A DNA stretch of 34,048 nucleotides, taken from the IMG/VR virus record IMGVR_UViG_3300028030_000039, positions 1-34,048 of that record; one strand, 5' to 3'. Position 1 is the stretch's first letter. Every line of letters starts with the position of its first letter. Shown here piece by piece: positions 1,609 to 30,527 of this stretch. The position numbers and the translations under genes were made by a program. The DNA comes from a virus. The notes beneath the pieces were generated by a model. It saw nothing but the letters and a program-made list of their open reading frames with translations, ran no database searches and was not told the DNA's origin.

Positions 1609-2450
1609 ACACAGCGTTTTATCACATAACATACGAACCGCTTGAAGGAACTTTCCTTCCAGAAATCAACATTGCAGTTGAGTATGAGAATGATGAAATT
1701 TTCTTCAAAGTGAATGGACACGACCTCACAGAAAAAGCATTTAAGAAAAATGAAAATGGAGAATATGTAGTTCTTGATATAGCGAAAGATTTTGAGTTGT
1801 TCATTTTTACTATGGATTTTCAATTCACTTATGATGTCTTGAACATAGAAGGCTTTCTCTATTCTGCAAAAAGCAGAGTAAAAATTATCAACGGAAAAGC
1901 AGAAGAGTTTGTAAACTTCACTCCTTCTATGCTTGAAAAGTTCGCTAACAAAGTAGATGAGTATCTCAATGAAACAAACAACATTATGAAAGAGGTAGTT
2001 GAGCAACAAGCAGAAAAGAAAATTAAAAAGGAGAAAGAGAAAGCAAAAAAGCTCAAACAGGAAGTAAAGAAAGAAAAGACAGAAAAAGAAAAACTCAAAG
2101 AAAAGTTAGAGCAAGTAAAAGAACTTGCAAAAAAGAAACTTACAGACCAAATTTTAAAATTACTTCATGGAGAAAATCTTGTATTTGATGAAGCAGAGAA
2201 AATTATCGAGCAAGAAGTCAAAGACAAGAAACAAGCAGAGAAGTTGAAAAAAGAAGTAAAAAGAGGAGCAAAGAAAGACAACGCACAAGAAGTTGTAAAT
2301 CTTCTACAACGCTTTTCAAACGAGGAATTTAAATTAGCTATTTCAGATAGGTATCAAGCAGATATTTTCCGAAAAATAATCAACGCTTCACGCTCTGTGA
2401 AGAAAAACTTTATCCAGACAGAACGAGGTAAAAAACTTTATGACTTATGA
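1605..2450 (+). CDS. coiled-coil protein in the MoxR/VWA operon
   Basis: The 281-residue product has an N-terminal beta-rich domain (about residues 1-115), then a long Lys/Glu-rich coiled coil (about 120-235), then a short helical C-terminus. No enzyme motif is visible. It overlaps the upstream gene by 4 nt and the MoxR-type ATPase downstream by 4 nt, so these proteins are likely made together and may form a complex. MoxR/VWA systems usually have one or more poorly conserved partner proteins acting as substrate or adaptor; this gene is a candidate for that role by position only. Confidence 0.65.
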   Translation: MNTAFYHITYEPLEGTFLPEINIAVEYENDEIFFKVNGHDLTEKAFKKNENGEYVVLDIAKDFELFIFTMDFQFTYDVLNIEGFLYSAKSRVKIINGKAEEFVNFTPSMLEKFANKVDEYLNETNNIMKEVVEQQAEKKIKKEKEKAKKLKQEVKKEKTEKEKLKEKLEQVKELAKKKLTDQILKLLHGENLVFDEAEKIIEQEVKDKKQAEKLKKEVKRGAKKDNAQEVVNLLQRFSNEEFKLAISDRYQADIFRKIINASRSVKKNFIQTERGKKLYDL

Positions 2451-3535
2451 TTTACATTTCAGACGAACACAAAGCAATTCTTGAAACAGGAATTGAGTTA
2501 AATGCTCCTATTCTCCTTGTAGGAGAAACAGGAACAGGAAAAACTACAATCATCAATCACTATGCAAAAGAAAAAGGAAAAACACTTCATCGTATTTCCG
2601 TAAATGGAGCAACAACGATTGAGGAGATTGTAGGAAAGTTTCTTGCAAAGAAAGGGACGACTTATTGGCAAGACGGACTTCTTGTAGAAGCAATGAAGAA
2701 AGGCGATTGGGTAGTATTTGATGAGATAAACGCCGCACTTCCAGAAATTTTATTCGTGCTTCACTCACTTTTAGATGACGACAGGAAAGTTACGCTTGTA
2801 GAAAAAGATAATGAAGTTGTAAGACCTCACAAAGATTTCCGCTTCTTCGCTACAATGAACCCTACTGACGACTATGCAGGAACAAAGGAATTGAACAAAG
2901 CATTTGAAAACCGCTTCCTTGCAAAGATTTTCATTGAACCGATAGAACCTGCGGAAGAGTTGAAACTTTTAGAGAGTAAAGGTATTTCAAGGGAAACAGC
3001 AGAGTATCTTGTAACAATAGCAAAGCACGCACGAGACTTGAAGAGAGAAGAAAAGATTTACTATTTCCTATCGACACGAGACCTTATCCACGCAGGAAAA
3101 CTTATAGACAAAGGAGTTCTTCGCACAACAACCTTGAAACATTCTATTCTTTCAAAAATGCACCACGAAGATAAAGTTACTCTTCTTGAATACTTGGACG
3201 CAAATGCAAACATTCAAATAGACCTCACTACAAGAGATGAAAAATTGAAAGAAGCAGAAGAAAAAATAAAAGAACTTGAAAGAACACTTGCTTCCTTACA
3301 GAGAGAGTTGATAGAAAAAGAGGTAAAAATTAAAGAAGAGAAAGCACAGAGTGAAATCTTGAAAGATGAAATTGAAAAGCGTGCAAAAGAATTGGGACAA
3401 GAAAGAAAAAAGAAACCTGCAAAACAAACTGACTTGATGAAGAAACTTTCTGCCGAAATGGTAAAACTACTCAAAGAGAAAGATGAACTCCTCAAAAAGA
3501 TAAGCGAGTATGAACAGCAAAACATTCAAAAATAG
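2447..3535 (+). CDS. MoxR-type AAA+ ATPase
   Basis: Residues 26-33 are a Walker A loop (GETGTGKT) and residues 91-95 (FDEIN) the Walker B with its Glu. The following segment containing FFATMNPTDDYAG and ENRF matches sensor 1 and the arginine-finger region of the MoxR/CobS/GvpN branch of AAA+ proteins. From about residue 250 the protein becomes a long charged coiled coil, longer than in typical MoxR proteins. MoxR ATPases remodel partner proteins and usually act with a VWA-domain protein, and one is encoded directly downstream with a 26-nt overlap. Family assignment is firm; the substrate is unknown. In phages such pairs are sometimes annotated CobS/CobT, but no cobalamin role is implied. Confidence 0.9.
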   Translation: MIYISDEHKAILETGIELNAPILLVGETGTGKTTIINHYAKEKGKTLHRISVNGATTIEEIVGKFLAKKGTTYWQDGLLVEAMKKGDWVVFDEINAALPEILFVLHSLLDDDRKVTLVEKDNEVVRPHKDFRFFATMNPTDDYAGTKELNKAFENRFLAKIFIEPIEPAEELKLLESKGISRETAEYLVTIAKHARDLKREEKIYYFLSTRDLIHAGKLIDKGVLRTTTLKHSILSKMHHEDKVTLLEYLDANANIQIDLTTRDEKLKEAEEKIKELERTLASLQRELIEKEVKIKEEKAQSEILKDEIEKRAKELGQERKKKPAKQTDLMKKLSAEMVKLLKEKDELLKKISEYEQQNIQK

Positions 3536-4262
3536 AATAACTTCTATCTTGAAAGATAATGCTATTGACCGAGAAGTCCGTAAAAGAAAGCGAGGAAAAC
3601 TTGATACAAAAAGTCTTGGAAAGATTGGAGTGAGTGAAAAGATTTTCAAAAAGAAAGAAGCGTTAGGAAAAAGGGAATACAAGTTTACTTTCTTGATAGA
3701 TGTTTCAGGTTCTATGTCAGGTTGGAGAATGGAAGCAACAGCAAACGCGTTTATCAAATTGTTTGAACTCTTGAATGAAATAAAAGGAATACAGATAAAA
3801 GTGTTTCTTTATGCACGGGATATTCTTCTTTTGAAGGATTATGAAGAAGAGCTTGATATGGAGTATTTCTACAATTTTTCAAATTGGCTTGCAGAAGGCG
3901 GTGGTGATTATGACCCAGTTGATGATTTCTCATCAAAACAAATAGCAGGAAGAAGTCTATTTCTTTCTATGAAAAAAGGTAGTTCTACACATTTTGAAAA
4001 TGGTGCTACAATTCCTGTAAATGTTTTGAAAGTTTCAAAAAAAGATGATGGACTATTCGTTTTTACAGATGGGTATTTCAATGAAATAGCTAGACAAGGA
4101 GCAAAAATCTTACGAGATAGAGACGCACTTTTCTTCGGAATAGAAACGACTTCTATTTATAATGAAGCTCCACCGAACAAGTGTATTTATCTTGCAGAAC
4201 CTTCGCAGATTTTCGAAGCGTCATTACGGAAGATTTCAAAGATGATAAAAAGACGAGGATAG
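3510..4262 (+). CDS. VWA-domain protein, partner of the MoxR ATPase
   Basis: The 250-residue product starts with a basic N-terminal segment and then a von Willebrand factor A domain. A complete MIDAS motif DVSGSMS is visible at residues 64-70, and FVFTDGYF lies later in the fold where the third metal-contacting loop is expected. VWA proteins of this type bind Mg2+ and serve as the partner of MoxR/CobS-like ATPases. The gene overlaps the ATPase by 26 nt, so co-production is likely. The stop codon lies in the loop of the terminator that ends this operon. Biological role in the phage is unknown. Confidence 0.88.
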   Translation: MNSKTFKNRITSILKDNAIDREVRKRKRGKLDTKSLGKIGVSEKIFKKKEALGKREYKFTFLIDVSGSMSGWRMEATANAFIKLFELLNEIKGIQIKVFLYARDILLLKDYEEELDMEYFYNFSNWLAEGGGDYDPVDDFSSKQIAGRSLFLSMKKGSSTHFENGATIPVNVLKVSKKDDGLFVFTDGYFNEIARQGAKILRDRDALFFGIETTSIYNEAPPNKCIYLAEPSQIFEASLRKISKMIKRRG

Positions 4263-4276
4263 TTGCTCGTCTTTTT
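4251..4276 (+). terminator. intrinsic terminator of the MoxR/VWA operon
   Basis: A 7-bp stem AGACGAG/CTCGTCT (4251-4257 with 4266-4272) is followed by T5. The stop codon of the VWA gene (4260-4262) lies in the loop. The flanking A and T runs would make it act in both directions. Confidence 0.8.
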
Positions 4277-4296
4277 CATTTTGCTATAATGTATGT
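4263..4296 (+). promoter_or_regulatory. promoter giving a leaderless parB-like mRNA
   Basis: TTGCTC (4263-4268) and TATAAT (4285-4290) are 16 nt apart and the -10 is extended (TGC). Only 6 nt separate the -10 from ATG 4297, so the mRNA should start at or within a base or two of the start codon. The -35 box overlaps the terminator stem. Confidence 0.75.
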
Positions 4297-4773
4297 ATGA
4301 TTGATTGGAAAGTAGAAAAAAGACGGATTGGAGATTTAGTTCCAGCAGATTATAATCCGAGAAAATTATCAGAAAAACAGCGTGAAGATTTAGAAAAAAG
4401 TTTGAAGAAATTCGGACTTGCCGAGATACCTGTTATCAATCTCAATAACAACATCATTGCAGGACATCAAAGAATAAAAATTCTTGCAGATTTATATGGA
4501 GAAGATTACGAAATAGATGTTAGAGTTCCAAGTCGCCTCCTGACTATAAACGAGGAGAAAGAATACAACATTCGCTCCAATAAGAATACAGGAGATTGGG
4601 ATTTTGATAAATTGATTACAGAGTTTGATAAAGATGAGTTGGTTGATTGGGGATTTGAAGAATGGGAAATTCCAGAAGATAGTTTTGATTTATCAGATGA
4701 AGATTTAGTAGACAAGAACAGAGAGGATAAACAAGTAAAAAAAGTTTGTCCTAACTGCGGATACGAACTATGA
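4297..4773 (+). CDS. ParB/sulfiredoxin-fold protein beside dpdA
   Basis: The 158-residue product shows the ParB N-terminal domain signature: NPRKLSEKQREDLEKSLKKFG (about residues 23-43) and the GHQR box near residue 53. There is no HTH of a partitioning ParB. The C-terminus is acidic and ends CPNCGYEL, half of a zinc-binding site. Phage ParB-like domains of this kind are often joined to, or encoded beside, DNA-modifying enzymes and can bind nucleotides. Here the gene overlaps the DpdA-like gene by 4 nt (ATGA), so a role in DNA modification is a reasonable inference, not proven. The abrupt end after CxxC could mean loss of a longer C-terminal domain. Confidence 0.82.
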   Translation: MIDWKVEKRRIGDLVPADYNPRKLSEKQREDLEKSLKKFGLAEIPVINLNNNIIAGHQRIKILADLYGEDYEIDVRVPSRLLTINEEKEYNIRSNKNTGDWDFDKLITEFDKDELVDWGFEEWEIPEDSFDLSDEDLVDKNREDKQVKKVCPNCGYEL

Positions 4774-5561
4774 GAATATATCTTGCTTACATTTCAGTTT
4801 TCGATAGAGTTTCCTCAAAAGTTAAAGAAAAACAAATTCCTTATTCTCTGATTTCTTTTGAAGTGATACGAAGAAAACCTTCTCTTTTCAAGACTATCCA
4901 AAGAGTTACAGAATTCAAGCAAGAATTGCTATTGGATAGTGGGGCATTTACTTTTATGGCAAACAATGTAAAAGGAAAAAGTGATAAAATTGACTGGGAC
5001 TCTTACATTGAAGAATATGCTGATTTCATCAATAAAAACAATATCAATTACTTTTTTGAACTTGATATAGATGTTCTTGTCGGATTGAAAGAAGTTGAAA
5101 GATTGAGAGCAAAACTTGAAAATCTTACAGGCAAAAAAAGTATTCCTGTATGGCACGCTCATCGTGGAATTGATTATTGGAAGAAAATGGTTGATGAATA
5201 TGAATATATTGCTATTGGCGGGCTTGTTCCGCAAGCAAAGGATGTAAGGTATAAGGTAACTCACGACACAATCAAAAAACTTGTAGAATATGCTCACAAG
5301 AAAGGAGTAAAGGTTCACGGATTAGGTTTTACAAATCTCAAACAGATGTTTCGCATTCCTTTTTATTCAGTAGACAGCACAAGTTGGGCAGGAGTTCGTT
5401 TCGGATATGTAAGGTTTGTGTATAAAGGAAAACATCTTTTAGGGAGAAAAGTTATAAAAAATTTCAATCCACAATATATTCCAGAAATTGTTTACAACAA
5501 TCTTGAAGCGTGGATTAGTCTTGCAAAATATGCAGACAAGAAAAATTATCCGTATTTTTAA
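4770..5561 (+). CDS. dpdA: DpdA-like DNA guanine transglycosylase
   Basis: The 263-residue product matches the tRNA-guanine transglycosylase fold in its phage DpdA form: LLDSGAFTFM (about residues 51-60, including the conserved DSGAF), FELDID near 93-98, PVWHAHRG near 128-135, AIGGLVP near 149-155, HGLGF, and YSVDSTSW toward the end. DpdA enzymes exchange guanine in DNA for a 7-deazaguanine such as preQ0. The complete preQ0 pathway in the same window (queC next door, queD/queE/folE at 28-30 kb) supports this over a tRNA role. It lacks the long C-terminal extension of bacterial DpdA, as phage forms do. It is coupled to the ParB-like gene and separated from queC by 13 nt. Confidence 0.85.
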   Translation: MRIYLAYISVFDRVSSKVKEKQIPYSLISFEVIRRKPSLFKTIQRVTEFKQELLLDSGAFTFMANNVKGKSDKIDWDSYIEEYADFINKNNINYFFELDIDVLVGLKEVERLRAKLENLTGKKSIPVWHAHRGIDYWKKMVDEYEYIAIGGLVPQAKDVRYKVTHDTIKKLVEYAHKKGVKVHGLGFTNLKQMFRIPFYSVDSTSWAGVRFGYVRFVYKGKHLLGRKVIKNFNPQYIPEIVYNNLEAWISLAKYADKKNYPYF

Positions 5562-5574
5562 TCGAAAAATAACT

Positions 5575-6231
5575 ATGAAGAAAAAAGTATTAGTAGTATG
5601 TTCAGGAGGGCTTGATAGCACAGTTCTCTATCACAAATTACAAGCAGAAGGAAATGAAGTAACTCCTATCAATTTTTCTTATGGTTCAAAACATAATCAA
5701 AGAGAAAGACAGAGTGCAAGAGAGATATTCGGAGACAAACTCATTGAAATTGATATAGATTTATCCTTTTTGAAAGGAAGCTCTCTTATCAATAGAGATA
5801 TAGAAGTTCCAAAAGGACATTACGAAGATGAAACAATGAAATCAACAGTTGTTCCTTTCAGAAATGGAATAATGCTTGCGTATGCAACTGCTTATGCAGA
5901 AGATAATGGTTTTGACGCAGTAGCACTTGGTTCTCACTTCGGAGACCACGCCATTTATCCAGATTGTAGAGAGAGTTTTTCAAAAGCAATGAAAGAAGCA
6001 ATCAAAGAGGGAACTTATAACAACATTGAGCTTCTAACTCCATTTTCAAATATAAGAAAAGAAGATATTGTAAAAATTGGAGCAGAACTTGATATTTTAG
6101 ATATAATGGCGAAAACTTATTCTTGTTACGAAGGGAAAGAAAAGCATTGTGGAAAATGCGGAACTTGCGTTGAAAGGAAAGAAGCGTTTGAGCTTGCAGG
6201 AGTAGAAGACCCAACAGAATATCAAGAATAA
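5575..6231 (+). CDS. queC: 7-cyano-7-deazaguanine synthase QueC
   Basis: QueC converts 7-carboxy-7-deazaguanine to preQ0 using ATP and ammonia. The PP-loop SGGLDST is at residues 9-15, and the C-terminal zinc site (SCYEG, then HCGKCGTCVERKEAF) carries four cysteines. The frame is open from 5488, but ATG 5575 is chosen because family members begin a few residues before the PP-loop and because the longer form would overlap dpdA; the resulting 218 residues fit the family. It is the third gene of the parB-like/dpdA/queC unit. No amidotransferase (Gat) domain or QueF-like reductase is seen, so preQ0 is the expected end product. Confidence 0.93.
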   Translation: MKKKVLVVCSGGLDSTVLYHKLQAEGNEVTPINFSYGSKHNQRERQSAREIFGDKLIEIDIDLSFLKGSSLINRDIEVPKGHYEDETMKSTVVPFRNGIMLAYATAYAEDNGFDAVALGSHFGDHAIYPDCRESFSKAMKEAIKEGTYNNIELLTPFSNIRKEDIVKIGAELDILDIMAKTYSCYEGKEKHCGKCGTCVERKEAFELAGVEDPTEYQE

Positions 6232-6237
6232 AGACTT

Positions 6238-6403
6238 CACCAACCTTGTCGTTGGTGTGTAGGGAAGATAAAGGTTAAGTTATCACAGGGCTACCTGCTG
6301 ACCGAGCAACGGACTACTAACTGCTTATCAGGTAGAGCATTAGTAAGGAAAATCAAACTAGGCTTTTAGAAGCAATATGCAGTGCAAAGATAACTCCCTA
6401 CAC
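6238..6403 (+). ncRNA. candidate structured RNA between queC and terS
   Basis: No gene is seen in 6232-6436, but the sequence holds long matching arms. A 7-bp hairpin (6238-6244 with 6251-6257) is followed by an enclosing stem of 8-9 bp (6257-6265 with 6395-6403), a second stem continuing inward (6279-6284 with 6389-6394) after a 13-nt bulge, and a 7-bp arm (6291-6297 with 6329-6335). The nested order is what a folded RNA would give. It may be a non-coding RNA processed from the queC message or, since terS follows, a packaging (pac) region. No known RNA family is recognised. Confidence 0.55.
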
Positions 6404-6419
6404 ACTGATGATAAGATTA

Positions 6420-6436
6420 TGATATAATATAGGCAT
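6420..6436 (+). promoter_or_regulatory. extended -10 promoter, near-leaderless terS
   Basis: TGATATAAT (6420-6428) lies 8 nt before ATG 6437. No -35 box is obvious. The expected transcript start is within a couple of bases of the start codon. Confidence 0.65.
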
Positions 6437-6826
6437 ATGGAAAAACAGGAAAAAAAACAGAAAACTCCAAAGAATGGAAAACCTGAAACTCTTTTCAAAA
6501 AAGGACAATCAGGAAACCCTAACGGAAGACCAAAAGGAAGAAAGAACTACAAGACAATCTTAATGGAGGCGGCGGAGGAAATTGCAAAGAAAGAGGGCTT
6601 CGTAGATGAAAAAGGAAATCCAGATAAAGATTATGTTCTTTCGCTTGTTTTTCAAAAGCACCTTGCACGAGCAGTAAAAGGAGACGCAAAGCACTTTACT
6701 ATTCTCACAGATAGACTTTTCGGAAAAGTTCCTCAAACTATCAATCTTTCTGTAACAGAAGAAGACCTTGAAGAAGCAAAGCAGAAGTTAGAGCAAATGG
6801 TAGATGTATGGGAAGAAAGCGAGTAA
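6437..6826 (+). CDS. terS: terminase small subunit (DUF5681-like)
   Basis: The 129-residue product begins with a basic region containing KKGQSGNPNGRPKGRKN (residues 22-38), the signature of the DUF5681 family that commonly sits directly before large terminases. The rest is helical and ends in an acidic stretch. Its position (19-nt overlap with terL) and size indicate the small terminase subunit, which recognises phage DNA for packaging. Family match of the N-terminus is clear; the role as TerS is from family and context. It has its own near-leaderless promoter immediately downstream of the structured region at 6238-6403. Confidence 0.8.
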   Translation: MEKQEKKQKTPKNGKPETLFKKGQSGNPNGRPKGRKNYKTILMEAAEEIAKKEGFVDEKGNPDKDYVLSLVFQKHLARAVKGDAKHFTILTDRLFGKVPQTINLSVTEEDLEEAKQKLEQMVDVWEESE

Positions 6827-8262
6827 ACTTAAAGAACAAGGAGGTTCAAGACATTCTCGTTAATCCAGAAAGACGAGCGGAGCGTATCTTGCTCGTAAAG
6901 CAAGACTTCAAGGCATACATTTTCGCTTATCTTCAAAAGAAGTTCCAGCTTCCTCCTGCTCCCTTCCACAAGAAACTTATTGAAGACTTACAGGACGACA
7001 GCAAGAGGTTCTATGCAGTTATGGGCTTTCGTGGAAGTGCAAAGACGACTATTCTTGAAGCGTATGCAGAATGGCTTTTAGTTACAGGGCGTTCAAACTT
7101 CATCGTATGGATTGGAGCAAGCGATACAGACGCAAAAGAAAGCGTAATGAACATAAAAAGCTCTATTGAGGAAAACCCAAAACTCCGTGCAGACTTCGGA
7201 ATTGATATTGTTACAGACAAGAAAAAGATAGCAGAGAAATGGACGGAAAGTCAGCTTATAGTAGGAAACTCAACAATCATTGCTCGTTCTCGTGGGCAAA
7301 AAATTCGTGGACGAAAGTTTAGAAATCATCGTATAGATACAATCATCGTAGACGACTTGGAGGATACAGAAAGCACACGAAACTTGGAGCAAAGAAAGAA
7401 AACAAGAAAATGGTTCTTCTCCGAAGTTATCAACGCTACGAAACAAGGAACGCTTGGAGACGATATCAAGGTGGTTATGCTTGGAAACCTCGTGCATAAA
7501 GATTGCTTGCTCTCCTACTTGATGAAAAGCGATGTCGTAGATGTATACCGCTTCCCGCTTATAGACGAGAATGGAGAAATCACTTGGAAAGCACTCTTTC
7601 CAGATATGGAAGCAGTAGAAAAAGAGAAACAGAAAGTCTTGCTTGCAGGAAAAGGAATGGGAGAAATTATATGGCAAAGGGAATATCTCTTAAAACTTAT
7701 TGACGAAGAAGACCAAATCATAAAGTATTCCGACATACAGACTTACGACCCTTCTTGGCTACAAAAACCTTTCGTTCAGGGTGGCGTTGGAATAGACCTT
7801 GCTATCTCCAAAAAACAAACAGCAGACTTCACTGCTATGGTAAAAGGCGTTGTAGTGAAAAATGATTACGGAGAGCGTAGAATACTTGTGCTTCCAAACG
7901 CTATTAGAGAAAGATTAGACTTCTCGGAAACGATACAAAAAGCAATTCAAATCAAAGCAGAAATGCCAGACAATACTACTTTCTTCGTTGAAGATGTAGC
8001 GTATCAAAAGGCGGCGATAGAAGTGATGAGAAAGAACGGACTTCTCGTAAAACCTATGCGAGCAACAACAGACAAGCGAAGTCGCTTGATGTCCGTTTCT
8101 TCGTATATCAAAAGTGGAGTAGTTTTATTTCCAAAAGAAGGGCTTGATGATATAATAGAGGAAGTAGTGAACTTCGGAGTAGAAGAACACGATGACGGAA
8201 TGGACGCACTCGTTCACTTGATAACAGGACTAACAGACACCAAAGAAGTAGTATTCATATGA
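6808..8262 (+). CDS. terL: terminase large subunit
   Basis: This 484-residue motor packages DNA into proheads using ATP and cuts it with its nuclease domain. A Walker A variant GFRGSAKTT is at residues 73-81 and the Walker B IIVDDLED at 179-186. The C-terminal RNase H-like nuclease has acidic residues D330 (GIDLA), E395 (VEDVA) and D462/D463/D466 (HDDGMDAL). Length is normal. It overlaps terS by 19 nt and the portal gene by 4 nt. All expected catalytic elements are present. Confidence 0.96.
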   Translation: MGRKRVNLKNKEVQDILVNPERRAERILLVKQDFKAYIFAYLQKKFQLPPAPFHKKLIEDLQDDSKRFYAVMGFRGSAKTTILEAYAEWLLVTGRSNFIVWIGASDTDAKESVMNIKSSIEENPKLRADFGIDIVTDKKKIAEKWTESQLIVGNSTIIARSRGQKIRGRKFRNHRIDTIIVDDLEDTESTRNLEQRKKTRKWFFSEVINATKQGTLGDDIKVVMLGNLVHKDCLLSYLMKSDVVDVYRFPLIDENGEITWKALFPDMEAVEKEKQKVLLAGKGMGEIIWQREYLLKLIDEEDQIIKYSDIQTYDPSWLQKPFVQGGVGIDLAISKKQTADFTAMVKGVVVKNDYGERRILVLPNAIRERLDFSETIQKAIQIKAEMPDNTTFFVEDVAYQKAAIEVMRKNGLLVKPMRATTDKRSRLMSVSSYIKSGVVLFPKEGLDDIIEEVVNFGVEEHDDGMDALVHLITGLTDTKEVVFI

Positions 8263-10169
8263 AAAACTTTTTTAGAAAATTGCTAGGCATTGAAGTAAAA
8301 CCTAGTTTCAGCATTGCTCTCCCAGAGAGTTTTGTAGATAAAAAAACACTCGCTTCCTACAAGAACTCGCTTTATCTCTTTACAGGGATTGAGCGTATTC
8401 TTACTGCACTTACAAGGCAAGAAATAGAACTACGAAAATATCTGAACACAGACGGCGAGTATGAAGTAGTAAAAGACCACGAGTTTTTAGACTTCTTCAA
8501 CAAACCTAACGAAATCCATACGAAAGATGAGTTTCTGCGTATTTTTATTACAAACTACATTCTTTCAGGAGAAGCGTTTGTTCGTAAAGTATTTGATAAC
8601 GGAAAACTTATCGGCTTGATAAACATTCGTCCAGACCTTGTAGAAGTAGAAGTAAAAGAACAAGATATTATTTACAAAGTTTACTATCCAGACGGAACTT
8701 TCAAAACTTACACTCGTGAAGAAGTTTCCCATATTTACAAACCTACGCCAGACAATCCGTTACGAGGTTCAGGTATTCTCACTCCTATCTTTACTCGTGT
8801 TACAGCAGAACAAAGAGCAGGAGAGTTACAGAGTAGAAGTTTCATAGGGCGTCCAGAAGGAATTCTTTATGTAGAAGGAGTAGACGCAAAACTTGCAGAG
8901 CAAATCAAGAAGCGTGTAAATCATCAATTCAAAGAGGGCGAACCTGTTTTTGTTACAAGCAACGAAACGAAGTTCCAAACTATTTCGCTTTCAAAGAAAG
9001 ACTTGGAATTCATTGAAAGTATGAAGTTCCTCCGTGAGGACATTATCGTTGCTCTCGGTATTCCAAAAGAGCTTCTCACTCTTGAAGATGTAGGAAAACT
9101 CTCTTCAAGCGGAGATAGAGGAATGCGACTTTTTGAAAAGTATACGCTTGACCCATTGATGAAAACTTATCTCGGCTTCTATAACACGGAAATCTTGGAC
9201 AAGCTCTATGAGGAACCGCTTGCTCTCGTTGCTCCAAATGTCGTTAGACAAGATAGAAAAGAATTGATTGAAGAAGTAACAAAACTTGTGAATGCAGGAG
9301 TTATTTCACAGAACGAAGCAAGGCAAGAACTTGGATACGAAGAGAAAGAAGGTTACGATGACTTGAAAGCAACTCCAACACTTTTGAAGAAAATAGAAAT
9401 CTTCCAGAGGAGAAAGAAACTTCTTGAAAAGACAATCAACACTATCGTGAGAAAGAAACTCTTCAAAGGCGAAGGGCGTTATGTTTACAAAAACCTTGTG
9501 AACCGCAATGTAGAAAATCTTGAAAAGCGTTTCCAGAAGAAAGCGAAAAGATATTTTGAAGAACAAAAGAAACGAGTAGTAGAAAACTACAAAGCAGGAA
9601 GACACCCTCTTGATATAAAAAGTGAAGTAGAAATCACTTACAACTTCGCAAGAGAAAGCTATGAACAGATAGCAAGGCGAGGGGCAGAGGTTGGAGTTTC
9701 GCTCTTGAAAATGATAACAAAGGCACAAGGCGATTATTCAATCTCTCCTGCTGTTCTTCACGAGTTAGAAAGCAGAGCAAGAATGTTTGCTGAAAATGTA
9801 GTCGGAGTTACTTATGACGAAGTGATGAAAATCATTGCGGAAGCGGAGCGTGAAGGGCTTGCGATAGATGAAATCCAAACAATGTTAGAAGAAACTTTTG
9901 AAGGAATGGCAGAAGTCCGTAGTTCAAGAATAGCAAGAACAGAAACAGGCTTCGTTGCAAATCTTGGCTTGAAAGACGCTTATGAGCAATCTCCTGTCGT
10001 TACAGGTATGGAATGGGTAACTGCGAAAGATAATAGAGTTCGTCCAGAACACCAGCTCAATGACGGAGTAGTTGTTCCGAAAGGCGGTATTTATCCGAAT
10101 GGGGAGCATTTTCCAGCAGAAAAGACTATAAACTGCCGATGTGTGCTTGCTCCTGTGTTAGATAAATGA
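8259..10169 (+). CDS. portal protein fused to MuF-like domain
   Basis: The first ~380 residues are an HK97-type portal: an N-terminal LLGIEV segment, the conserved strand/helix region around SGEAFVRK and YKPTPDNPLRGSGILTP, and the helical stem near FLREDIIVALGIPKELL. From about 400 the protein is charged and helical, and the last ~54 residues carry the MuF (Mu gpF) signature: ARTET, WVTAKDNRVRPEH and NCRC. Portals of this family are usually 380-450 residues, so the 636-residue length is a genuine fusion, with no stop or restart between the parts. The portal forms the DNA channel; MuF domains are minor head proteins. The stop TGA overlaps the extended -10 of the next promoter. Confidence 0.92.
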   Translation: MKNFFRKLLGIEVKPSFSIALPESFVDKKTLASYKNSLYLFTGIERILTALTRQEIELRKYLNTDGEYEVVKDHEFLDFFNKPNEIHTKDEFLRIFITNYILSGEAFVRKVFDNGKLIGLINIRPDLVEVEVKEQDIIYKVYYPDGTFKTYTREEVSHIYKPTPDNPLRGSGILTPIFTRVTAEQRAGELQSRSFIGRPEGILYVEGVDAKLAEQIKKRVNHQFKEGEPVFVTSNETKFQTISLSKKDLEFIESMKFLREDIIVALGIPKELLTLEDVGKLSSSGDRGMRLFEKYTLDPLMKTYLGFYNTEILDKLYEEPLALVAPNVVRQDRKELIEEVTKLVNAGVISQNEARQELGYEEKEGYDDLKATPTLLKKIEIFQRRKKLLEKTINTIVRKKLFKGEGRYVYKNLVNRNVENLEKRFQKKAKRYFEEQKKRVVENYKAGRHPLDIKSEVEITYNFARESYEQIARRGAEVGVSLLKMITKAQGDYSISPAVLHELESRARMFAENVVGVTYDEVMKIIAEAEREGLAIDEIQTMLEETFEGMAEVRSSRIARTETGFVANLGLKDAYEQSPVVTGMEWVTAKDNRVRPEHQLNDGVVVPKGGIYPNGEHFPAEKTINCRCVLAPVLDK

Positions 10170-26693: not shown

Positions 26694-26700
26694 TTTATTT

Positions 26701-26716
26701 TGCTATAATATAATTA
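26701..26716 (+). promoter_or_regulatory. promoter of the replication operon
   Basis: TGCTATAAT (26701-26709) lies directly behind the fibre terminator and predicts a transcript start near 26716-26717, where the leader hairpin begins. Confidence 0.7.

Positions 26717-27277: not shown

Positions 27278-27281
<4 letters not shown>
26832..27281 (+). CDS. winged-helix protein fused to an HNH motif
   Basis: Residues 1-95 form a winged-helix domain like the N-terminus of phage replication proteins (FTQIPNIVFDELMAELSTCELKILLYLIYKGG). Residues 98-149 hold an HNH-type zinc module: CLFC, the ERHHFPI core, then CPNCHRKFH. The linker is short and basic. It is fused in one frame, with no stop between. It lies directly upstream of the replication initiator, overlapping by 4 nt, so it may act at the origin, for example as a nicking or regulatory factor, or the HNH part may be a captured homing nuclease domain. 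Either is inference. Confidence 0.78.
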
Positions 27282-27946
<665 letters not shown>

Positions 27947-28169: not shown

Positions 28170-28448
28170 ATGGCGAGAATAAAAGAAAAAGAAGAAAAGC
28201 AAGAAGTAGTGCTTTTCACGAAAGAGGAATTCAAAAAAGAAGCAGAAACACTCACAAGGGAAGTTCATTTGAACGGAATAAAAAACTTGTGGGTGAAATA
28301 CTTGAAATCAAAAGGCGTTATCTCTCAAATTTTTGAGAAGCAAGGCGTGATGTATTTTAGAGCAATTACAGACGCTCGACTTTTTACAAAGTATGATAGA
28401 ATTTATTCATCTTGGATAAGTAAGAATAAAATGTTATGGAAACGATAA
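28170..28448 (+). CDS. hypothetical basic protein, 92 aa
   Basis: The 92-residue product has a charged N-terminus (Lys/Glu-rich, about 1-35), then a mixed hydrophobic region with VKYLKSKGVISQIFEKQGVMYFRAI. No family or enzyme motif is recognised. It starts 4 nt after the preceding stop (TAG-GCGT-ATG) and overlaps queD by 13 nt, so it is co-translated with the deazaguanine gene. A link to that pathway is possible but not shown. Confidence 0.62.
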   Translation: MARIKEKEEKQEVVLFTKEEFKKEAETLTREVHLNGIKNLWVKYLKSKGVISQIFEKQGVMYFRAITDARLFTKYDRIYSSWISKNKMLWKR

Positions 28449-28873
28449 TCACAAAAGAAATTCAAATTGATATGGGACATAGAGTTCCAAATCACGAAGG
28501 TAAATGTTATAATCTTCACGGACATAGGTATAAAATCATTGCAGGAGTAAACGGAAAAGTTATTGATGAAAAAGGAAATCCTTCAGAGGGAATGGTTATA
28601 GATTTCACAGACCTTAAAAATATTCTCGTTGAAGTAGTTGATAAAAAACTTGACCACGCTTTTATGCTTTACAAAGAAGATAAGTTTTTTGAAGACTTCA
28701 AACCTTTTGTAGAGAAAATGAAATTCGTGATTGTAGATTTTGTTCCTACGGCTGAAAACATTGCACGCTATCTTTACGAACAAATGGAAGGGAAATTAAA
28801 AGAAAAGGGTATTAAGTTGGTTTTCGTTGAAGTTTACGAAACTCCAACATCAGTTGCAAGATATACCTTGTAA
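28436..28873 (+). CDS. queD: 6-carboxytetrahydropterin synthase QueD
   Basis: QueD makes 6-carboxy-5,6,7,8-tetrahydropterin from dihydroneopterin triphosphate, the second step toward preQ0. The family motif C24-x3-H28-G-H30 (CYNLHGH) with H15 gives the zinc site and catalytic cysteine. Later motifs VIDFTDLK, LDHAFML, PTAENIARYLYE and VEVYETPTSVARY are intact. Length (145) is normal. It is the last gene of the replication operon, and the stop codon overlaps the -35 box of the promoter for queE. Confidence 0.95.
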   Translation: METIITKEIQIDMGHRVPNHEGKCYNLHGHRYKIIAGVNGKVIDEKGNPSEGMVIDFTDLKNILVEVVDKKLDHAFMLYKEDKFFEDFKPFVEKMKFVIVDFVPTAENIARYLYEQMEGKLKEKGIKLVFVEVYETPTSVARYTL

Positions 28874-28922: not shown

Positions 28923-29606
28923 ATGTTACACAAAAAATTTTTTATCGATGCAGATATTGTTCTTCAAGGTGAAGGACAATTAGCAGGTGTTCCGCACTTG
29001 CTTTTACGAACGACAGGTTGTAACTTGAAATGTCCTTGGTGTGATACACCATATTCAAGTTTGAAACCTGAAAGACCTACAATGTCGTTAGAAGACGCTC
29101 TGCGTATCTTGCGACAAAATCCGCAAATCAAGAATGTTATGCTGACAGGTGGAAATCCTTCTATTGTGAAAGAGCTTCCTCAAATCTGTGAAGTATTGAG
29201 CGAATGGCATATTACATTGGAAGATAACGGAACAATTTACAGAGAAAATTTGAAAGTAGATTTAGTTTCCTTATCTCCGAAATTAAGTAATTCAATTCCA
29301 GAAGGAAGACATCGTGAAACGCATATCAAATTCATTGCGAATTGGAATGCGTATGAAAAATGGATAACAAATTACAATTATCAATTGAAGTTTGTTATTC
29401 AAAATGAGTTGGATATTCTTGAAGCGTTGCGGATAATCAATTACATAAGTGCAGACAAGAGTAAGGTATATTTTATGCCAGAAGGGAGAACAAGAGAAGA
29501 GTTAGCACAACGAAGAGTTTGGCTTGCTGAAAATTGTATTTCTCTTGGTGTAAATTACACAGACCGCCTGCACATAATCATTTATGGAGATAAAAGAGGA
29601 GTATGA
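28923..29606 (+). CDS. queE: 7-carboxy-7-deazaguanine synthase QueE
   Basis: QueE is a radical-SAM enzyme that contracts the pterin ring to 7-carboxy-7-deazaguanine. The iron-sulfur motif CNLKCPWC (C33, C37, C40) is followed by DTPYS, and the TGGNP motif lies near residue 75. The N-terminus [11 protein letters not shown] matches the substrate-binding start of the family. Length (227) is normal for QueE. It is the first gene of a unit with folE and overlaps it by 4 nt. Confidence 0.95.
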
Positions 29607-30190
29607 AGAATGAAAAGAAACAACAATTTAATCCCAACAAAGGAGAGGAACTCTTCGGAGAATTCCTCTCTTCTTTGGGATTTGATTGGAAGAACGACCC
29701 GAATATGGTGGGAACACCAAAACGCATTGTAAAAATGCTAACAAAAGAGATTGCAAAATCTCGCTACGAAGAACCGCCAAAGATAACAGCTTTTGACAAT
29801 GAGGAACATTATAGTGGTTTGGTCTTTCAAGGAGATATAGAAGTGAAAAGTTTATGTTCACATCATTTTCTTCCATTCATTGGAAAAGCGTATGTCGCTT
29901 ACATACCAAATCCGAACGGAAAAATTATTGGACTTTCAAAGTTGAATAGAATAGTAGAATACTATTCTCGACAACCGCAAGTGCAAGAAAATCTCACACA
30001 GCAAATACATAAAGCAATAGATGAAGTTATTCCAGACAATCTTGGAGTTGCAGTTTTGATAAAAGCAAAACATATGTGCGTCTATATGAGAGGAATAGAA
30101 CACGATTCGGAAATGAAGACGAGTAAATTATCAGGAGCGTTTCTTACAGACGCAGATGCTCGTGCAGAGTTCTATTCTTTCATAAAGTGA
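29603..30190 (+). CDS. folE: GTP cyclohydrolase I
   Basis: FolE opens GTP to dihydroneopterin triphosphate, the first step of the preQ0 (and folate) pathway. The zinc-site Cys and catalytic motif [14 protein letters not shown] (about residues 84-97), GLSKLNRIV and QPQVQENLT, and [11 protein letters not shown] near the end are all present, as in type IA enzymes. At 195 residues the length is normal. In this context, beside queE and with queD upstream, its role is most likely to supply the deazaguanine pathway rather than folate. Confidence 0.95.
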
Positions 30191-30191
30191 T

Positions 30192-30527
30192 ATGGCAATT
30201 CCGAAGAAACTTCTTGAAGAAATTTTAGCGGACGACTTTTATCAAAAATGTATCCGCTCGCACGAAGGGACTTGCAGAGGAAGAGTTACTTTTGAACACG
30301 CTATCATTTACGCAGGGAAACAGGTTCAAGAGAAATGGGCTATCGTTCCTCTATGTGAGTATCACCACGATGTTCTTTCATTCCAAGATAGAGGAGACTT
30401 GAAAAAAGATTACGGACAATGGGTAGCACTGAACAGAATGACAGAAGCGGACGAGAAAAAATATCCGAAAAGAAATTGGAAGAAAGAACGAGAACTATTG
30501 AACAAAAAGTATGGCAAAGAAAGGTAA
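30192..30527 (+). CDS. HNH-type nuclease-like protein, 111 aa
   Basis: The product contains a zinc/HNH arrangement: C20 and C28 (KCIRSHEGTCRGRVTFEHAI), the core FEHAIIY, and CEYHHDV, where the final His pair lies. This layout (two spaced cysteines, a 'G-R-V-T-x-E-H-A' strand and 'P-L-C-x-x-H-H') is common in phage recombination-related HNH proteins. The C-terminal part is basic and helical. It starts one base after the folE stop and overlaps the HU-like gene by 17 nt. Substrate is unknown. Confidence 0.75.
   Translation: MAIPKKLLEEILADDFYQKCIRSHEGTCRGRVTFEHAIIYAGKQVQEKWAIVPLCEYHHDVLSFQDRGDLKKDYGQWVALNRMTEADEKKYPKRNWKKERELLNKKYGKER

Follow-up and report, generated by a model that had tools for sequence, protein, structure and literature searches.

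A viral locus encoding a ParB-like protein, a short DpdA and a complete preQ0 pathway, with 7-cyano-7-deazaguanine as the predicted base in virion DNA

Hutinet et al. 2019 assembled the phages that modify their DNA with preQ0 into group 2, and the measured members of the group, Rosebush and CAjan, carry dPreQ0 at about 28% and about 32% of their guanines, respectively (PMC6884629). Deletion of dpdA from CAjan abolishes dPreQ0 (PMC6884629). Proteins related to ParB have been described beside more than one DNA modification enzyme. DpdB of the bacterial Dpd systems, a ParB-like ATPase, works together with DpdA (PMC12839542), and ParBc proteins accompany CmoX in phage cytosine modification, in a role that the authors call unknown (PMC12783734). 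The authors of a 2019 study of phage CRB2 suggested that the neighboring ORF1 might be DpdB-like (PMC6392294), and the idea of a link between ParB and DpdA is therefore not wholly new. A literature search found no paper stating or testing a ParB-dpdA rule that holds across a clade. The window analyzed here is the whole of an IMG/VR virus record, a linear stretch of 34,048 bases that may be incomplete, and it encodes a ParB-like protein together with DpdA and the genes for preQ0.

The unit that the sequence-only reading had placed at 4297-6231 is confirmed in its open reading frames and in its families, all on the plus strand. It encodes a ParB-like protein of 158 aa (4297-4773; phrog_620, E 2.9e-27, with a fold match), a short-clade DpdA of 263 aa, a DNA-guanine transglycosylase (4770-5561; phrog_887, E 2.4e-56, with a fold match), and QueC, a preQ0 synthase of 218 aa (5575-6231; PF06508, E 1.5e-57, with its motifs). 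The ParB-like frame and dpdA overlap by 4 nt, and 13 nt separate dpdA from queC when the latter is read from the ATG at 5575. This ATG is most likely the QueC start; it gives the canonical beginning MKKKVLVVCSGGLDS, and the TTG at 5488 would mean a 74-nt overlap with dpdA. Directly 3' of the unit, on the same strand, are a terminase small-subunit candidate and the large subunit (6437-8262, by family search). The 205 nt that separate queC from the small terminase candidate (6232-6436) are gene-free, adjoin the packaging genes and have no Rfam match; they are possibly a packaging or regulatory site. Directly 5' of the unit lie genes for a MoxR/CobS-like AAA+ ATPase (2447-3535) and a VWA-domain protein (3510-4262). 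The window contains no tRNAs, and a search of it with Rfam at gathering thresholds found no RNA element, hence no known preQ1 riboswitch.

Comparison of the 4770-5561 product with the DpdA and TGT families gives one answer by sequence and another by fold. By sequence its place among the phage DpdAs, and not among the tRNA TGTs, is well supported, and the clustering with tRNA TGTs that would have refuted the earlier reading is not seen. It is 30.7% identical to the DpdA of phage 9g at 73% coverage, and a BLAST search with it returned 225 phage records, in which the annotated entries among the matches listed are for the most part labeled queuosine or queuine transglycosylase; 9g DpdA is one of these. 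Bacterial DpdA models (NCBIfam and PADLOC) match it weakly, the NCBIfam match falling under the curated cut-off, and a profile search of PDB sequences returned no TGT. Fold alone leads to TGT: the AlphaFold model (pLDDT 89, pTM 0.88) aligns to the TGT structure 1p0d with a Z of 15.9 and an rmsd of 3.8 over 243 of 263 residues, and the best 50 structural matches in a second-look alignment are all TGTs. The ligands of the TGT zinc site are three cysteines and a histidine; the window DpdA has no cysteine at all and therefore cannot form this site. The DSGAF motif noted in the earlier reading is present at residues 56-60, and D56, S57, G58 and A59 of the motif do not vary among 62 relatives; nor do E97, D99, H129, G150, H183, D202, S203 and W206. 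By motif and fold, D202 would be the counterpart of the TGT nucleophile and D56 that of the second catalytic aspartate. H183 aligns with H196 of 9g DpdA, the conserved histidine that separates DpdA from DpdA2, which does not have it (Hutinet et al. 2019).

The sequence-only reading was wrong in taking QueC as the sole preQ0 gene in view, because QueD (6-carboxytetrahydropterin synthase, 28436-28873), QueE (the radical SAM 7-carboxy-7-deazaguanine synthase, 28923-29606) and FolE (GTP cyclohydrolase I, 29603-30190) are also encoded, again on the plus strand. All three were identified by family search and have their motifs, namely CxxxHGH as CYNLHGH in QueD, CxxxCxxC as CNLKCPWC in QueE and CSHH in FolE. 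QueC scores 194.9 bits against PF06508 (cut-off 22) and 169.5 bits against TIGR00364 (cut-off 150.3), and in alignment with solved QueC structures, including 2pg3, its SGGLDS, YPDCR and C-x7-CGxCxxC zinc motifs are intact. The window thus holds the whole pathway from GTP to preQ0. As the earlier reading had it, tailoring enzymes were not found: QueF, Gat-QueC, ArcS and DpdC are all missing among the predicted genes searched of this linear, possibly incomplete record, outside which such a gene (QueF, ArcS or DpdC) could lie. A 111-aa open reading frame 3' of FolE (30192-30527) was weighed as a possible tailoring gene and rejected; it has no family support and looks HNH-like by eye. DpdA together with FolE, QueD, QueE and QueC, and without an amidotransferase or QueF in a record that may be incomplete, is the gene content that defines group 2. 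In the absence of a recognized tailoring enzyme dPreQ0 is therefore still the best prediction, as originally proposed, and the genes missed before and the Rosebush precedent strengthen it.

The two halves of the pathway appear to be expressed from one class of promoter. The element ATTTTGCTATAMTRTA occurs in four exact copies, at 756, 4278, 26697 and 30782, and a pattern of this kind, written after a repeat search had found the family, is expected 0.15 times in the window even when 2 mismatches are allowed. The copy at 4278-4293, ATTTTGCTATAATGTA, precedes the ParB-like gene, and the exact copy at 26697-26712 is 5' of the operon that reaches QueD-QueE-FolE; it is this second position that places both halves under the same class. 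Only 6 nt separate TATAAT at 4285-4290 from the ParB ATG, so that the leaderless start envisaged from the sequence is likely. Just 5' is a hairpin with an 11-bp stem and a T tail (4247-4276, plus strand) that is terminator-like and would end the AAA+/VWA unit, parting it from the ParB-DpdA-QueC unit. A generic sigma-70 scan of the window gave 6 hits against 7.5 in shuffles, no excess, and the promoter claim therefore rests on the repeated element. A second promoter-like element, RTGATAHAATAGA, has 7 matches at no more than 1 mismatch against 0.16 expected and lies 5' of several structural genes (sites at 10166, 12407, 17377, 19026 and 24197), with a TATAAT-like core 6-9 nt from some of the ATGs; it is probably a late, leaderless promoter class. 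A Shine-Dalgarno-like motif precedes only 2 of the 49 predicted genes of the window, which suggests a host whose translation starts independently of SD or on leaderless messages. Near-perfect inverted and direct repeats (TAGTAAAGAAACTTWACT) cluster at 27523-27621, inside a DnaD/O-like replication gene (27278-27946), in an arrangement resembling a replication origin.

The ParB-like protein is predicted from its model (pLDDT 89.6) to adopt the ParB/Srx NTP-binding fold and to bind nucleotide. The model matches a pNOB8-like ParB N-domain with a Z of 12.5 and the CTP-bound ParB of M. xanthus (7bnr) with a Z of 12.2, at 1.7 A over 90 residues; sulfiredoxin comes next after the ParB N-domains (Z 6.4-7.9). 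The G-x-x-R motif of the nucleotide pocket is kept in the family as GHQR or GNxR, with G56 invariant and R59 at least 90% conserved, and N95 is at the position of the ParB EN motif. In the window protein, the motif takes the form G-H-x-R and a CPxC half zinc ribbon stands at the C terminus, where 37 of 80 family members have such a CxxC half ribbon. No parS-binding HTH domain is recognized in it. Of 65 family members, 62 match a type II ParB-methyltransferase model, which is the best match. The suggestion made for phage CRB2 that the ParB gene is DpdB (PMC6392294) finds no support in profile matches, the DpdB model having no reported match among the same 65 members.

The association of this protein with short DpdAs extends well beyond the window. 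A scan of viral contigs with a single DpdA sequence returned nothing, and profile scans were needed for relatives there. The loci were chosen solely for their DpdA similarity, and only afterward were their open reading frames scanned with a ParB profile (three seeds, iteratively extended). In the short-DpdA clade, where the query held three ParB-linked DpdAs and the sample is biased toward the clade and not toward ParB presence within it, ParB lies directly 5' of dpdA, no more than 1 kb away, in 103 of the 104 viral loci with room upstream, and directly 5' of it in 16/16 loci from bacterial genomes with such room; in the 9g clade, ParB is upstream of dpdA in 0 of 78 loci. In the only short locus that lacks ParB (L086), the dpdA frame is incomplete and nothing upstream is recognizable as ParB. 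Over all ParB-linked loci, in a first count, the exact 4-nt overlap of ParB and dpdA is shared by 56 of 106 pairs. The ParB profile matches all of the tested ParB-type whole records, and it matches nothing in the whole records of 9g, BcepGomr, Bhz54 and R7M or in 14 viral records of the 9g clade. The sampled loci are thus sharply divided, with one broad DpdA lineage nearly always accompanied by ParB and the 9g lineage never.

A tree of 46 DpdAs, in which several branches are long and exact placement is uncertain, groups the window with locus L052 (100/99) in the short clade and puts the ParB-linked DpdAs of actinobacteriophages (Rosebushvirus, Finch and Typha) on the side of the 9g clade. The root as drawn therefore has ParB linkage to either side of it, and this pattern would fit two gains of the linkage or its loss on the way to the 9g lineage. 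A mirror-tree test of ParB-DpdA contact gave a rho of 0.64 for ParB and DpdA, no better than the 0.70 for QueC and DpdA, and therefore no specific signal of coevolution. DpdAs of the 9g type work without a linked ParB; the chemistry therefore does not in general require ParB. Two loci have two tandem dpdA genes behind the ParB gene (L212, 7827-9514; L058, 618-2229). Fusobacterium phage phiFN37 (L009, 7354-9663) has ParB-DpdA and, one gene later, a YhhQ-type queuosine precursor transporter, with no preQ0 synthesis genes at that locus, and this phage may import its precursor.

ParB of the window type is also found with other modification enzymes. It is gene 1 in Bclasvirinae, where the modification genes downstream differ. 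In Rosebushvirus, DpdA and the preQ0 genes come after it. In Mycobacterium phage Acadian (L229, 1-3588), a gene with a weak TET/JBP match comes next, and then a TET-associated glycosyltransferase (E 6.5e-38), a PIG-L deacetylase and a nucleotide kinase; this is a different DNA hypermodification cassette in the ParB slot. In Gordonia phage Evaa a ParB-N methyltransferase comes after the ParB gene, and the phage matches to window-type ParB, among those listed, are mostly genes annotated as DNA methyltransferase. By analogy, these neighboring chemistries and the precedents of DpdB and CmoX favor a general role for ParB as a partner in DNA modification.

The reading that best accounts for the whole locus, with a probability of roughly 0.72, is that the phage has its own preQ0 pathway, a DpdA that exchanges the product into phage DNA and a ParB-like partner that loads the enzyme on DNA. 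FolE, QueD, QueE and QueC of the phage would convert GTP to preQ0, and DpdA would put preQ0 in the place of guanine in phage DNA, exchanging the bases in the manner of a TGT. Virion DNA would then be expected to carry 2'-deoxy-7-cyano-7-deazaguanosine, which could shield it against host restriction enzymes. The ParB-like protein, apparently made from the same transcript, would be the NTP-dependent loading partner of the short DpdA, its NTP-binding ParB-N domain and short tail recruiting the transglycosylase to DNA or holding it there, and it may act likewise for other modification enzymes. A bolder proposal, put forward tentatively and at somewhat less than even odds, is that DpdAs fall into two mechanistic classes, one with ParB as its obligate, NTP-switched DNA-loading factor and the other, that of 9g, having dispensed with it, and that ParB is a generic adaptor which phages reuse across base exchange, methylation, TET/glycosyl hypermodification and carboxymethylation.

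Other readings differ on what ParB does or on what becomes of preQ0. That the ParB-like protein is a partition, packaging or regulatory protein, merely linked to the cassette and tied for instance to the adjacent terminase, is unlikely. The fold is that of ParB, the slot after the cassette is occupied by terminase in the window, Rosebushvirus, Typha and MT835752 alike, and in Bclasvirinae ParB stays constant at position 1 as the modification genes change. However, in Rhodococcus phage Finch ParB is still with dpdA though the cassette is away from terminase, relatives of the protein are fused to or beside methyltransferases, and neither a parS-type HTH in the protein nor a ParA among the families of the window was recognized; these observations argue against such a role.

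It is distinctly unlikely that the same cassette ends in a DNA base other than preQ0, such as ADG, CDG, preQ1 or archaeosine, by way of a tailoring gene that is unrecognized or missing, of the host, or of a DpdA that accepts other pathway intermediates. Such outcomes have precedents in Vibrio phage nt-1, which has a mixture of bases, and in Dp-1, which has dPreQ1 (PMC6884629), and several window genes have no family in a record that is linear. Against this, the tailoring families are missing among the predicted genes searched, and the measured phages with such gene content and no tailoring enzyme, Rosebush and CAjan, contain dPreQ0 (PMC6884629). It is very improbable that the module would instead raise queuosine in host tRNA and leave phage DNA unmodified. 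FolE, QueD, QueE and QueC also serve the synthesis of tRNA queuosine, and the DpdA model is folded like a TGT, but the relatives found at the sequence level are DpdAs, the enzyme is 263 aa long and free of the cysteines of the zinc site, and 9g dpdA fails to rescue an E. coli mutant in tgt (PMC6884629).

Among described systems, those of Enterobacteria phage 9g and Escherichia phage CAjan share with the window DpdA and FolE, QueD, QueE and QueC, as well as the conserved DSGAF and histidine, but a ParB gene was found neither beside dpdA nor elsewhere in those whole records that were searched, and 9g has Gat-QueC and makes dG+. Bacterial Dpd resembles the window in that DpdA works with a ParB-superfamily ATPase, DpdB (PMC12839542); it differs in that the reported matches of the phage ParB are to ParB-methyltransferase models and not to DpdB, and in that no DpdC was found in the window. 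Where phages have ParB-N domains joined to, or lying next to, DNA methyltransferases and other modifiers, the same ParB family stands beside a DNA-modifying enzyme, whereas the chemistry there is methylation, carboxymethylation or TET-type oxidation and base exchange is predicted here. The closest relative is a contig binned as Persephonella sp., in which QueD-QueE-FolE-ParB-DpdA-QueC are contiguous; the proteins are 47, 39, 57, 53, 53 and 56% identical to their window counterparts, the ParB and DpdA frames are broken in the assembly, and the rest of the stretch has no similarity to the window. The six genes therefore behave as a single cassette, divided in the window into two parts. A host assignment through the Persephonella MAG was rejected, as that genome has no match to the window terminase.

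If ParB is required, this would explain why ParB domains recur beside unrelated DNA-modifying enzymes, where their role has been called unknown (PMC12783734), and it would give a rule for reconstituting such pathways. The closest known arrangement is that of Rosebushvirus. Its gene order, ParB-DpdA-QueC-QueD-QueE-FolE-terminase, was read in Phantasmagoria, a congener of Rosebush, the phage in which dPreQ0 was measured (PMC6884629). The window differs from it in having the cassette split into two operons, in the lengths of DpdA (263 against 346 aa) and ParB (158 against 263 aa) and in a DpdA that falls in another deep clade. Taken with the dPreQ0 of Rosebush, this shared gene order means that the window cassette is of an already known kind. 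A modified-guanine cassette is in itself a known anti-restriction strategy of phages, and with DpdA and preQ0 already described, the partnership with ParB is the part that merits experiments.
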